DNA from: a virus
Reading direction: 5' to 3' (one strand)
IMG/VR virus record: IMGVR_UViG_3300035201_000198
Span: 1 to 37,067 of that record
DNA length: 37,067 nucleotides
Shown here: positions 7,326-17,917 of the stretch, in pieces
How positions within the stretch are numbered: the stretch's first letter is position 1
How the letters are laid out: every line of letters begins with the position of its first letter
Made by a program: the position numbers and the translations under genes
Notes under the pieces: model-generated
The model's input: only the letters and a program-made list of their open reading frames with translations
The model's database searches: none
Told to the model about the DNA's origin: nothing

Positions 7326-7491
7326 TGGAGGGTATGAACATCCATGGTATAAACATCAGAATAAAGATAGATTAATTAGACCTAACCCACCTACTAAAGA
7401 GGCAGTAAGACGTGCCAAATTCAGAGATAAAACCTACCAGTGGAGTAGGTCCAATGATCTTCGATCTGGAAACAAACGGACTTTTAAATAA
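7279..7491 (+). CDS. Hypothetical basic protein between helicase and polymerase (70 aa)
   Basis: This frame overlaps the helicase end by 47 bp and the exonuclease ORF start by 38 bp. It is the only frame filling the 128-bp space between them. The product is basic (about one third Lys/Arg/His; ...KEAVRRAKFRDKTYQWSR...). No motif recognised. The long overlaps make the start uncertain; there is no later ATG in this frame. T7-like phages often carry small unnamed genes at this point, which is modest support. Confidence 0.45.
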   Translation: MKLRNHQFSTQPQIFDGGYEHPWYKHQNKDRLIRPNPPTKEAVRRAKFRDKTYQWSRSNDLRSGNKRTFK

Positions 7492-8011
7492 TACTACACG
7501 TATACACTGTATTTCACTCAACTGGTATGAAGAAGATCGAATTGAATCCTTCAATGACGAGAAGTATGCCTCAGAAGCTAAGGAACTTCCAATGGCAAGT
7601 AATTATTCCATTACAACTGCTCTTAGTTATCTCCAGGATGCTGATTATCTCATTGGTCATAATATCATTGGGTTTGACATTCCTATTATTAAAAAACTTT
7701 ACCCTTATTTCAATCCCAGGGGTATTATCATTGATACTCTTTTGTTATCTAGGTTATATCATCCGAATCTACTCGATATAGATAAGAATCATAATTGGGA
7801 ACATATGCCACTTCAATTATATGGTAGACATAGCTTAGAAGCATATGGTTATAGATTAGGTGAATATAAAGGTAATTTTGCGAAGACTACAGATTGGAAA
7901 GAGTGGTCACAAGAAATGGAAGACTATTGTATACAAGATGTTGCTGTCACCACTAAATTATGCAAACATTTCCTCCCTTACCTGGATGGATCCAAATGGA
8001 ACATCAGGTAG
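7454..8011 (+). CDS. DNA polymerase, 3'-5' proofreading exonuclease domain (split gp5, part 1)
   Basis: Equivalent to the N-terminal domain of T7 gp5. The start at 7454 (MIFDLETNGLL) is preceded by a GGAG/TAGG purine stretch; an ATG at 7412 would add 14 non-conserved residues. All three Exo motifs are present: Exo I DLETNG with the Asp/Glu pair, Exo II LIGHNIIGFDIP, and Exo III YCIQDVAVT with the Tyr-x3-Asp pair. The frame closes at TAG 8011, where T7 gp5 continues into the polymerase domain. The rest is in the -1 frame from 7960. The proofreading centre is complete, so this looks like a functional stand-alone domain. Confidence 0.9.
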   Translation: MIFDLETNGLLNNTTRIHCISLNWYEEDRIESFNDEKYASEAKELPMASNYSITTALSYLQDADYLIGHNIIGFDIPIIKKLYPYFNPRGIIIDTLLLSRLYHPNLLDIDKNHNWEHMPLQLYGRHSLEAYGYRLGEYKGNFAKTTDWKEWSQEMEDYCIQDVAVTTKLCKHFLPYLDGSKWNIR

Positions 8012-9222
8012 CACAAATATTAACACAACAGGAGCTCCATGGATGGTATTTTGATGAACAAGCTGCACGGGAACTTGAATCAACTCTCCGAAAAGAGTAT
8101 GAAGATACTACGAGGTTACTACGAAACAGGCATCCTTTCGTTAAAGGATCAGAATTTACTCCTAAACGATCTAACAAAAGAAGTGGATATGTCGAAGGAG
8201 CAACCCTTACCAAATTAAAGGAGTTTAATCCTACATCAAGGGATCATATATCATGGATCTTACAGACACATTATGGCTGGACGCCTTCATTACTGACGAA
8301 CTCAGGCAAGGCGGTTATAGACGAGACCGTGCTAAAAGAACTTGGGACGGATATTGCTCTTCAGTTTCTGACACTATTGGATCTGACAAAAAAGTTAGGG
8401 ATGATATCAGAAGGCGTGAACGCATGGCAGAAGCTTGTTACGACATCTAGCCGAATACATCACCATTGTGCGGTAGGTACATCTACTCACCGCTGTCACC
8501 ATCGAACTCCAAATTTAGCACAGGTACCTCAAGATGAAAGATTTAGAAAACTATTTACCGCCTCGCCTGGAATGGTTATGTGCGGGGCTGACCTTAGCGG
8601 TATTGAACTCAGGATGCTTGCCCATCATCTCGCCAGATTTGATCAAGGACGCTATGCCGAAATCCTCGTTACAGGAGACATCCATGCCGAAAATGCCAAG
8701 CGCATCGGGATTACTAGAACCCAAGTAAAAACTGTAACTTATGCATTTCTTTATGGGGCTGGAGATCAGCGCATAGGTCAGGCATATGATAAACAATTAT
8801 CAGATGAACTCAAAAAGAAGAAAGGTAAAGAAATCCGTGAAGCATATGTGGCTGCCATTCCAGGTCTTAAAGAACTCTTGGAAGCTGTACACAAAGCTAG
8901 TGAAAGAGGTTTTTTATATGGTTTAGATAATAGACGTATACTTGTCGATTCTAAACATAAAAGTTTAAACTATCTTTTGCAAGGAAATTCAGCCGTTCTC
9001 GCAAAAAAATGGATGATTTTATCTAATGAAAATCCTTTTAAAACCCCTAGACAAGTTGCATTCATTCATGATGAATTACAATTTGAAGTACACCCAACTG
9101 AAGTAAATGACCTTAAATTCCACCTTGAATTATCAGCAGTACAGTCAGGTGAGTCATATGGACTCAGGTGTCCTATTGCCGCAGAATCTAAATCAGGTAA
9201 GACCTGGGCAGAGGTACATTAA
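7960..9222 (+). CDS. DNA polymerase I-type, polymerase domain (split gp5, part 2)
   Basis: Family A replicative polymerase domain. Motif A is GADLSGIELR with catalytic Asp at about residue 211 (numbered from 7960). Motif B is QVKTVTYAFLYGAG with the O-helix Lys257 and Tyr261. Motif C is FIHDELQ with His370-Asp371-Glu372. The C-terminus SGKTWAEVH matches the T7 gp5 end. Similarity to T7 gp5 begins at WIQMEHQVAQI, so the true start may be ATG 7960 or ATG 7996. It overlaps the exonuclease ORF by 52 bp and lies in the -1 frame relative to it. No canonical slippery heptamer is visible in the overlap. Confidence 0.93.
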   Translation: MQTFPPLPGWIQMEHQVAQILTQQELHGWYFDEQAARELESTLRKEYEDTTRLLRNRHPFVKGSEFTPKRSNKRSGYVEGATLTKLKEFNPTSRDHISWILQTHYGWTPSLLTNSGKAVIDETVLKELGTDIALQFLTLLDLTKKLGMISEGVNAWQKLVTTSSRIHHHCAVGTSTHRCHHRTPNLAQVPQDERFRKLFTASPGMVMCGADLSGIELRMLAHHLARFDQGRYAEILVTGDIHAENAKRIGITRTQVKTVTYAFLYGAGDQRIGQAYDKQLSDELKKKKGKEIREAYVAAIPGLKELLEAVHKASERGFLYGLDNRRILVDSKHKSLNYLLQGNSAVLAKKWMILSNENPFKTPRQVAFIHDELQFEVHPTEVNDLKFHLELSAVQSGESYGLRCPIAAESKSGKTWAEVH

Positions 9223-9226
9223 TCTT

Positions 9227-9682
9227 ATGCTTAATTCAGAACATACTATAGAAGATATGTATGCTCTTAAGTATAATACTGAAACTACTAGCAAAAAAGA
9301 TATTGGAGATATTTATGTTGATGGTATACCATGGAATATAAAATCTAATAATATCAATAAAAGCAATTATTCACCAAATTTAATTAGTGCTGATAAATTA
9401 TTCAATCATTTAACAGATGGTAAATTTTTAAAATTCTTATTTGTTGATTATATTGAACCATTAGATATAATCAATGAGCAATTAGTTGATGCTCATCATA
9501 TATCTTGGGACTGTTTAGATATACGTTGCCAAGGTAAAGGTGTTATACAATTAAGTTCAAAATTAATAATTAATGAAAATCAAACTGTAAATGAATTTCT
9601 TAAAGGATTTAGCCCAGCTTATTCTAAATATATTCATAAAGAAAGATTGAAATTAAATAAACTTGAGCAAAAATTCTGTTAA
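9227..9682 (+). CDS. AT-rich inserted ORF, possible PD-(D/E)xK-type nuclease (151 aa)
   Basis: Starts four bases after the polymerase stop (ATG 9227; the frame is open upstream but lies inside the polymerase gene). Sequenced lines in it are about 18-25% G+C, far below neighbouring genes, which suggests recent acquisition. The segment KKDIGDIYVDGIPWNIKSNN has the shape of a restriction-fold core, Asp-x(n)-[N]-x-K, with Asn where Glu/Asp is usual. NYSPNLISADKLFNHL after it also resembles restriction-enzyme helices. T7 has no gene here of this kind. A nuclease or degenerate homing/restriction enzyme is a guess; nothing else was recognised. Confidence 0.75.
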   Translation: MLNSEHTIEDMYALKYNTETTSKKDIGDIYVDGIPWNIKSNNINKSNYSPNLISADKLFNHLTDGKFLKFLFVDYIEPLDIINEQLVDAHHISWDCLDIRCQGKGVIQLSSKLIINENQTVNEFLKGFSPAYSKYIHKERLKLNKLEQKFC

Positions 9683-9689
9683 ACCACCT

Positions 9690-10427
9690 ATGAAATTATT
9701 AATTGATGCTGACTTTATTGTCTATAAGTCATGTGCAGCTGCAGAAACTGAAATAGACTGGGGTGATGATACCATCCTTGTTACAAGTAAATTCAGTGAT
9801 GCATATAAAGCTACAAAAAGAGAATTAAATAAGATCCGAGATAAATTTGGATCCTTTTCTGAAATGATTCTATTCTTTTCTGATAGTAAGAATTTTAGGA
9901 AAGAAATTTTGCCAGAGTACAAGGGGCATAGAAATCGTAAGAAACCTTGTGGTTATATGCGTGTAGTCAATAAACTCAAGACTGAGTTTGAAGTGATTAT
10001 TATGCCTGAACTTGAAGCTGATGATAGTATGGGTATTTATAGTACACAATATCCAGGTAATATGATTATATCTCCTGATAAAGATATGAAACAAATACCA
10101 GGAGAACTATATAATTTCGATGAAACCTTCACAATCACGGCTAATGAAGGTGCTAAATGGCACTTAATACAGACTTTAGCAGGTGATCAAACAGATGGTT
10201 ATGGTGGAGTACCTGGAATTGGTGTTAAACGAGCCGAGGCTCTTTTTTCTAAGGAAGGTTACTCTTGGAAAACAGTTGTAAATGCTTTTGTTGAAAAAGG
10301 TTATTCAAATGTTACTGCTTTAACAAATGCTAGACTTGCAAGAATATTAACCGTAGAGGATTATGACTTCAAAAAGAAAAAACCTAGATTATGGAATCCC
10401 TCCTCCGATTACCAAATTAACGACTGA
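9690..10427 (+). CDS. 5'-3' exonuclease (T7 gp6-like, FEN family)
   Basis: Degrades host DNA and removes RNA primers. I start it at ATG 9690 (MKLLIDADFIVYKSC); a TTG at 9663 in frame would overlap the upstream gene. FEN-family metal-binding motifs are in order: DADF near the N-terminus, LPEYKGHRN, ELEADDSMG, ISPDKDMKQIPG, then the helix-hairpin region GDQTDGYGGVPGIGVKRAEALF. The 245-residue length is a little short of T7 gp6 (300), mainly at the C-terminus. The gene end overlaps the NblA-like ORF by 65 bp. Confidence 0.95.
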   Translation: MKLLIDADFIVYKSCAAAETEIDWGDDTILVTSKFSDAYKATKRELNKIRDKFGSFSEMILFFSDSKNFRKEILPEYKGHRNRKKPCGYMRVVNKLKTEFEVIIMPELEADDSMGIYSTQYPGNMIISPDKDMKQIPGELYNFDETFTITANEGAKWHLIQTLAGDQTDGYGGVPGIGVKRAEALFSKEGYSWKTVVNAFVEKGYSNVTALTNARLARILTVEDYDFKKKKPRLWNPSSDYQIND

Positions 10428-10638
10428 GCAAGATTTCAAATTAAGGCAAATGGAAATATTATTAGAAAAACCAGAAACAAAAAGAGAAGATATAATTACT
10501 TTAATATTAGCCTTACAAAGACAGAACTTTGTCTTATGTAATTCACTCACCAATTTAGTTGACAAATGGCCAAAGGTCCATCCTACTATCAGCGAGGTTC
10601 CTGCGATGTTTGGGATTTTATTAGAGAACAGGGATTAA
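10363..10638 (+). CDS. nblA: NblA-like phycobilisome degradation adaptor
   Basis: NblA is a small helical cyanobacterial protein that binds phycobiliproteins and directs them to Clp protease. Residues 19-69 (LTTEQDFKLRQMEILLE...REDIITLILALQRQ...LTNLVDKW) follow the NblA pattern: L-[ST]-x-E-Q-x-F-x-L-R in helix 1, then an acidic turn, then a hydrophobic helix with LxRQ and a terminal Trp. The 20-residue N-terminal extension is longer than in most host forms (about 60 aa total). NblA genes are known in freshwater cyanophages and have been reported in marine ones. It overlaps both neighbours (65 and 73 bp). I judge it homologous by pattern only. Confidence 0.72.
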   Translation: MTSKRKNLDYGIPPPITKLTTEQDFKLRQMEILLEKPETKREDIITLILALQRQNFVLCNSLTNLVDKWPKVHPTISEVPAMFGILLENRD

Positions 10639-10859
10639 ATTTCCACCTCGGTAATGCTATTAAATATATAGCAAGAGCAGGACACAAAACACAAAGCAAA
10701 ATTGAAGATTTAGAAAAAGCTATTCATTATTTAGAAAATGAACTCCACCATGAAAAAGACATTTATTTCAGAGCAAGCCAAGGAATTCCGTACCAAATAC
10801 AACCTGACGAACGGGACGGATCGTACCAAACGCTCATATCAGAAAAATCTGATTGTTGA
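10566..10859 (+). CDS. DUF3310 family protein (97 aa)
   Basis: Residues 7-61 match the DUF3310 pattern well: YYQRGSCDVWDFIREQGLNFHLGNAIKYIARAGHK followed by EDLEKAIHYLENEL (given here as separate motifs YYQRG, DVWDFI, GNAIKYIARAG, EDLEKAIHYL). The family occurs in many phages beside nucleotide-metabolism genes and is related to the T7 gp1.7 region; a nucleotide-kinase role has been described for T7 gp1.7, but I cannot confirm it for this protein. Its C-terminal 35 residues lie in the overlap with the MazG-like gene and are probably unstructured. Confidence 0.8.
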   Translation: MAKGPSYYQRGSCDVWDFIREQGLNFHLGNAIKYIARAGHKTQSKIEDLEKAIHYLENELHHEKDIYFRASQGIPYQIQPDERDGSYQTLISEKSDC

Positions 10860-11130
10860 GGAGTTTAAAGAATTCCTTGAAGCTGAAGGGTTCTTATTCA
10901 TGCACGGTAAGAACCATCAAGAACATGCATTAAAAGAATTAGCTGATCTGGTTTATGTCTGCTATCAGTACGCTGAGAGTATGGGTTGGTTCTTAGATGA
11001 AGCATTAGATAGAGTGCATAATAGTAATATGTCTAAGCTAGGAGACGATGGACATCCAATATATAGAGAAGATGGTAAAGTTTTAAAAGGACCAAATTAC
11101 AAGCCACCAAATTTAGAAGACTTATTTTGA
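10750..11130 (+). CDS. MazG-like nucleotide pyrophosphohydrolase (all-alpha NTP-PPase)
   Basis: Members of this superfamily hydrolyse NTPs or dNTPs to monophosphates; cyanophages often carry one, perhaps to recycle nucleotides or change nucleotide signalling. The metal-binding signature is visible: IVEEFKEFLEAE (Glu-x-x-Glu at about residues 38-41) and KELADLVYVCYQYAES (Glu-x-x-Asp). The tail SKLGDDGHPIYREDGKVLKGPNYKPPNLEDLF is typical of phage versions. ATG 10750 (MKKTFISEQAKEF) is chosen; ATG 10738 would add four residues. It overlaps DUF3310 by about 110 bp. Confidence 0.85.
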   Translation: MKKTFISEQAKEFRTKYNLTNGTDRTKRSYQKNLIVEEFKEFLEAEGFLFMHGKNHQEHALKELADLVYVCYQYAESMGWFLDEALDRVHNSNMSKLGDDGHPIYREDGKVLKGPNYKPPNLEDLF

Positions 11131-16858: not shown

Positions 16859-17917
16859 ATGGCAACTACAGTAACAATTACAAAACCATCTAACAACTGG
16901 CAGAGTTTTTGTGACTGGGTTACTAGTACCGACAACCGACTTTACGTTGGTTGGTTCGGTGTCCTAATGATCCCTGCACTACTAACAGCAACAACAGCAT
17001 TCATTCTTGCGTTTATTGCGGCTCCTCCAGTTGACATAGATGGTATACGAGAACCCGTAGCGGGCTCCCTACTCTATGGAAACAACATCATCTCAGGGGC
17101 AGTCGTCCCGTCATCTAACGCAATCGGTCTTCACTTCTACCCAATCTGGGAAGCTGCAACCCTCGACGAGTGGTTGTATAACGGAGGACCATATCAACTT
17201 GTTATATTCCACTTTCTCATCGGTATCGCAGCATACATGGGACGACAATGGGAACTTAGTTATCGACTAGGTATGAGACCGTGGATATGTGTAGCATATT
17301 CAGCCCCAGTCTCAGCAGCATTCGCTGTATTCTTAGTCTATCCCTTTGGACAAGGAAGTTTCTCTGATGGAATGCCGTTAGGTATATCAGGAACCTTTAA
17401 CTTCATGTTTGTCTTTCAAGCAGAACATAATATATTAATGCATCCCTTCCACATGGCTGGGGTAATTGGTATGTTTGGTGGTGCTTTGTTTGCTGCAATG
17501 CATGGTTCATTAGTAACGTCCTCATTGATACGTGAGACAACTGAGAATGAGTCTCAGAATTATGGTTATAAGTTTGGGCAAGAAGAGGAAACATATAATA
17601 TTGTTGCCGCCCATGGATATTTTGGACGCTTAATATTTCAATATGCCTCTTTTAATAATAGCCGTTCTTTACATTTTTTCTTGGCTATATTCCCAGTGGT
17701 TTGCATATGGCTTACCTCCATGGGAATCAGTACAATGGCATTCAACCTCAATGGTTTCAACTTTAATCAATCCGTTGTTGATTCAAACGGTAGGGTTGTC
17801 CCTACTTGGGCGGATGTTTTAAATCGTGCTAATTTAGGTATGGAAGTGATGCATGAAAGGAACGCTCATAATTTTCCGCTTGACCTAGCGGCTAAAGAGG
17901 TCAAGTCAATCGGTTAA
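16859..17917 (+). CDS. psbA: Photosystem II reaction-centre protein D1
   Basis: Replaces the short-lived host D1 so light reactions continue during infection. The 352 residues number like standard D1: Tyr161, Asp170 (GQGSFSDG), Glu189-His190 and His198 ([14 protein letters not shown]), and the manganese ligands His332, Glu333, His337, Asp342 and Ala344 ([15 protein letters not shown]). Residue 130 is Gln (MGRQWELS), the form usually linked to low-light D1. The C-terminal extension after Ala344 is only eight residues (AKEVKSIG) compared with up to 16 in hosts. G+C falls from about 52% early to about 33-40% late in the gene, which hints at mosaicism. No intron. Confidence 0.98.

Follow-up and report, generated by a model that had tools for sequence, protein, structure and literature searches.

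The virus record analysed here, a stretch of 37,067 bases referred to below as the window, has its genes arranged as in T7-like cyanophages. On its forward strand a small, NblA-like open reading frame lies between an exonuclease gene and a DUF3310 gene, the latter overlapping a gene for a MazG/PRA-PH-like nucleotide pyrophosphohydrolase, after which comes a ribonucleotide reductase gene (Table 1). The first-pass annotation, made from the sequence alone, had described this frame as nested between the exonuclease and DUF3310 genes; the frame itself is present at the coordinates given there, begins with ATG and codes for 91 residues, and both neighbours are confirmed by Pfam matches, but it is not nested, since it overlaps the two of them. 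The overlap with the exonuclease is arranged likewise in the phages P-SSP7, NATL1A-7, S-CBP1 and S-TIP37. The DNA polymerase of the window occupies two overlapping open reading frames in different frames (7412-8011 and 7960-9222), representing either a split gene or a programmed frameshift, and the records of S-TIP37 and P-SSP7 note the same two-frame polymerase.

Table 1. Features at and around the nblA-like gene, in window coordinates
Feature	Position	Strand	Basis
T7-like 5'-3' exonuclease gene (gp6-like)	9663..10427	+	PF02739, 42.3 bits
nblA-like gene, 91 aa	10363..10638	+	ATG-initiated ORF; same-position orthologs; family profile matches NblA
Overlap of nblA-like start and exonuclease end, 65 nt, different frame	10363..10427	+	ORF coordinates
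NblA core (residues 17-69), with a short helix (21-34) and a long helix (41-68) that has W69 at its end	10411..10569	+	hhalign; AlphaFold2 core model
Overlap of nblA-like end and DUF3310 start, 73 nt, coding for the tail ending EVPAMFGILLENRD	10566..10638	+	ORF coordinates
DUF3310 gene (named 'nucleotide kinase' by several phage records)	10566..10859	+	PF11753, 49.8 bits
MazG/PRA-PH-like nucleotide pyrophosphohydrolase gene, overlapped by the DUF3310 gene	10738..11130	+	PF01503, 30.8 bits

A conserved gene at the exonuclease-DUF3310 junction

Relatives of the frame occupy the same position in 17 cultured T7-like cyanophages, a few uncultured records and 53 IMG/VR contigs. They include P-SSP7, P-SSP3 and NATL1A-7, which were isolated on Prochlorococcus. 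The orthologous group of T7-like cyanophage nblA is delimited by its position between the exonuclease and the DUF3310/MazG/nrd genes together with a conserved core motif, and the window has both.

That the two ends of the frame overlap annotated genes, and that several phage records leave it unannotated, would be compatible with a chance open frame produced by the exonuclease/DUF3310 overlap rather than a gene, a reading that the comparative data make extremely improbable. The part of the frame that is exclusive to it amounts to 138 nt, and a codon comparison of this part over 33 sequences found that in every one of the 33 the nblA-like frame is open and the two alternative frames are closed. 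Conservation is strongest at codon position 2, with 0.15 substitutions per site, and weakest at position 3, with 0.51; position 1 has 0.33. The median pairwise dN/dS of 0.21 corresponds to purifying selection. The codon-position pattern and the dN/dS contradict a chance frame, which we reject. Moreover, the related Prochlorococcus phages 9515-10a and NATL2A-133 have the exonuclease directly next to the DUF3310 gene, with no nblA-like frame in between, and the family profile has no match in the rest of these two genomes. The junction can thus exist without the frame, which argues for an inserted gene and against a by-product of the junction, and indicates that the gene is optional at this site.

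Within the DUF3310 overlap, all three codon positions show suppressed substitution. The nblA tail encoded there (EVPAMFGILLENKD) is strongly conserved, and P-SSP7 retains it, yet has no annotated DUF3310 gene following it. In Synechococcus phage S-RIP1 (L057 1501-1757) the ortholog is split across two frames in mid-core, which points to disruption of the gene or else to an error in the sequence.

Relationship of the product to NblA

The residue pattern on which the first-pass annotation had based its assignment (LTTEQDFKLRQ...LQRQ...DKW) is found at residues 19-69 of the window protein. The PF04485 match expected from it was not obtained when the protein was scanned alone (hmmscan, six-frame search), and direct searches of Pfam and the PDB with the single protein likewise gave no match. 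The curated PF04485 cut-off of 25 bits is a threshold of detection and does not describe the biology of the protein; the case for membership is made here on the family as a whole. Two of the same-position orthologs score above the cut-off, that of S-TIP37 with 27.9 bits, the single PF04485 match in its genome, and that of S-SRP01 with 25.1 bits, and 15 of the 43 phage family members match PF04485 at some level. Some members also have weak Pfam matches to DUF2420, BBS2_Mid or Dicty_REP; these are below cut-off and not reciprocal, and were set aside.

Short helical proteins often yield weak chance matches, and the want of a direct PF04485 match for the window protein, together with a Foldseek search that returned none, could be taken to mean that this small, helical phage protein has an origin of its own, its likeness to NblA being due to chance or convergence. 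We consider this very improbable, in view of the orthologs above the curated cut-off and of reciprocal searches and shuffle controls. A phage family profile containing no host sequence was searched against all six frames of 292 cyanobacterial genomes, and all 13 of its 13 best places proved to be nblA genes, independently located with PF04485 (E 3.6e-4 to 6e-3 per genome). Against all PDB sequences, the same profile ranked the NblA structures 3cs5, 2q8v and 2qdo first to third, albeit weakly (E 0.04 to 0.5). Alignment by hhalign of residues 17-68 of the phage family with residues 5-54 of 45-odd host NblA sequences gave a probability of 92.4% (p 5e-7) and a score of 37.8, compared with 21.8 for the best of 200 column shuffles and 10.0 for the reversed profile; with viral contigs only, the score against host NblA was 31.7. 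When a host-NblA HMM was run without filters on the 265 open-frame fragments in the window, the single protein came first, with 14.1 bits (E 7.7e-4) against 5.3 bits for the second-best fragment, and its sequence was shuffled 20,000 times without any shuffle attaining 14.1 bits (17,330 scored; top shuffle, 10.5 bits). Both sets of shuffles speak against a chance resemblance, and we reject it. The family-level evidence, comprising the PF04485 matches of orthologs, the reciprocal search, the hhalign comparison and the PDB profile search, thus upholds the proposal that this T7-like cyanophage encodes a homolog of NblA, and we identify the open reading frame, by its sequence, as a divergent member of that family.

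The AlphaFold2 model of the full protein contains helices at residues 21-34 and 41-68 and a weak one at 79-88 (pLDDT 71, pTM 0.39), and that of the core has helices equivalent to 21-34 and 41-67 (pLDDT 89.2), so that the window protein is predicted to have the layout of NblA, a short helix and then a long one. Searches with the full and core monomer models (Foldseek against the PDB and BFVD, and VIA-align) returned no NblA chain, and as a two-helix monomer carries little information we draw no conclusion from them. Bienert et al. are said to have found in 2006 that K53 of Anabaena NblA is needed for phycobilisome binding, the phycobilisome-binding residues being L51 and K53 (Anabaena numbering). 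In our alignment, the L51 position corresponds to L65 of the window protein, which is invariant across the phage family, and the K53 position corresponds to D67, which is variable.

The window protein also matches PHROG 27006 over residues 22-91 (E 1.2e-28), and this group, labelled as of unknown function, is the same NblA family, which allows it to be given a name. The ortholog frame is open and not annotated in S-TIP37, NATL1A-7, P-SSP3, DSL-LC07 and S-SBP1. As Pfam fails to detect the window gene and several reference phages carry the gene without an annotation, surveys that use Pfam only will undercount it.

Proposed function and likely host

By homology and by analogy with published relatives, the product would be a small two-helix protein that forms dimers, and the NblA dimer would serve as an adaptor linking the host Clp protease with host pigment proteins, binding both Clp and phycobiliproteins. 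In the course of infection, antenna and other proteins would then be broken down, which would release amino acids and reduce light harvesting, presumably to the benefit of the phage. Such an antenna-dismantling role is plausible for the window protein. Viral nblA genes in T7-like cyanophages have been published: Nadel et al. (2019) are credited with predicting the gene in one myovirus and in 14 isolates of cyanopodoviruses (PMC9602691), and Nadel et al. (2025; Nature 648:434), as cited in PMC12892361, report that host light-harvesting complexes are degraded by viral NblA. The discovery is therefore not new, and the window gene is a diverged copy. It enlarges a viral family known to accelerate infection and to reduce host light harvesting. 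S-TIP37 is said to be the phage tested in the 2025 work. As the sole PF04485 match of S-TIP37 sits at the present locus, we infer that the published podovirus nblA is this same locus; a gene-deletion system exists for that phage (PMC8776855). Taken together, the window very probably carries a divergent nblA of the described T7-like (clade B) marine cyanophage lineage, most likely acting as other NblA proteins do.

The gene had further been read as a sign of a phycobilisome-bearing host. This does not hold, as orthologs are present in P-SSP7, P-SSP3 and NATL1A-7, and both phycobilisomes and nblA are lacking in Prochlorococcus (PMC7439483); the nearest isolates of the window phage are themselves Prochlorococcus phages. 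Its DNA polymerase is closest to that of NATL1A-7 (73%) and its psbA to those of 9515-10a and NATL2A-133 (81%), and its G+C content (0.37 overall, 0.39 in the core) is below that of every comparison phage, the nearest being Prochlorococcus phages (0.405-0.424). On these grounds Prochlorococcus appears to be the likelier host. The nearest relative of the polymerase frame at 7960-9222 bears nblA and those of psbA (16859-17917) do not, a discordance which suggests that the genome is mosaic. The earlier statement that the gene would be expressed with the middle genes and not with psbA is unsafe, since in P-SSP7 the transcription of psbA is contemporaneous with that of the ribonucleotide reductase and replication genes (PMC2570332).

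The occurrence of nblA in Prochlorococcus phages raises the question of what a phycobilisome-degradation adaptor has as its substrate in a host devoid of phycobilisomes. One possibility, which we hold only tentatively, is that the protein, although an NblA homolog by descent, was retargeted in the Prochlorococcus-phage branch and would bring a non-phycobilisome host protein to the Clp protease, candidate cargoes being remnant phycoerythrin or other host proteins. Consistent with this are the lack of phycobilisomes and nblA in Prochlorococcus, the orthologs in P-SSP7, P-SSP3, NATL1A-7 and the low-G+C window genome, and the purifying selection still acting on the gene. The scores against host NblA point the same way, being 26-30 bits for the Synechococcus phages S-TIP37, S-SRP01, KBS-P-1A and S-SBP1 and lower, at 14-18 bits, for P-SSP7, P-SSP2/3 and the window, or 14-19 bits once NATL1A-7 is included. 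However, the Synechococcus phages S-B28 and WH11-B have scores as low as that of the window, which rules out a clean tracking of host genus by profile score, and which host the window phage infects is itself inferred. As some Synechococcus phages are equally low-scoring, we put retargeting forward as a hypothesis only, and consider it unlikely that viral NblA has been retargeted across the T7-like Prochlorococcus phages, carrying other host proteins to the Clp protease; the reading preferred here is that of a divergent nblA with the function of other NblA proteins.

Comparison with known systems

From PHROG 27006 the window protein shows no difference that we could see, the family merely being without a functional label. 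With cyanobacterial NblA (PF04485; PDB 3cs5, 2q8v, 2qdo) it shares the length of the core, the order of the helices, short before long, and the conserved L-xx-E-Q, R and Leu positions. It differs in that core identity is about 18%, two residues are inserted between the helices, extensions are present at the N- and C-termini, and the NF, NxxNL and WP motifs of the phage protein are absent from host NblA. The freshwater cyanophages Ma-LMM01, MaMV-DC and PaV-LD resemble the window phage in bearing nblA with the same proposed role, but are phages of other types with other hosts, and in the tree described in PMC9602691 their NblA is reported to lie far from the marine podovirus cluster. A close parallel is the nblA of T7-like marine cyanophages, for example that of S-TIP37. 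The S-TIP37 protein ends about 10 residues past the core and scores above the PF04485 cut-off, whereas that of the window has a longer tail, overlapping the DUF3310 gene, and is too diverged for Pfam; the two genes nevertheless lie at the same locus, overlap the end of the exonuclease in the same manner and have in common the core motif LTxEQxxKxR...LALQxQNF...NLVxKW, the proteins being 53% identical.
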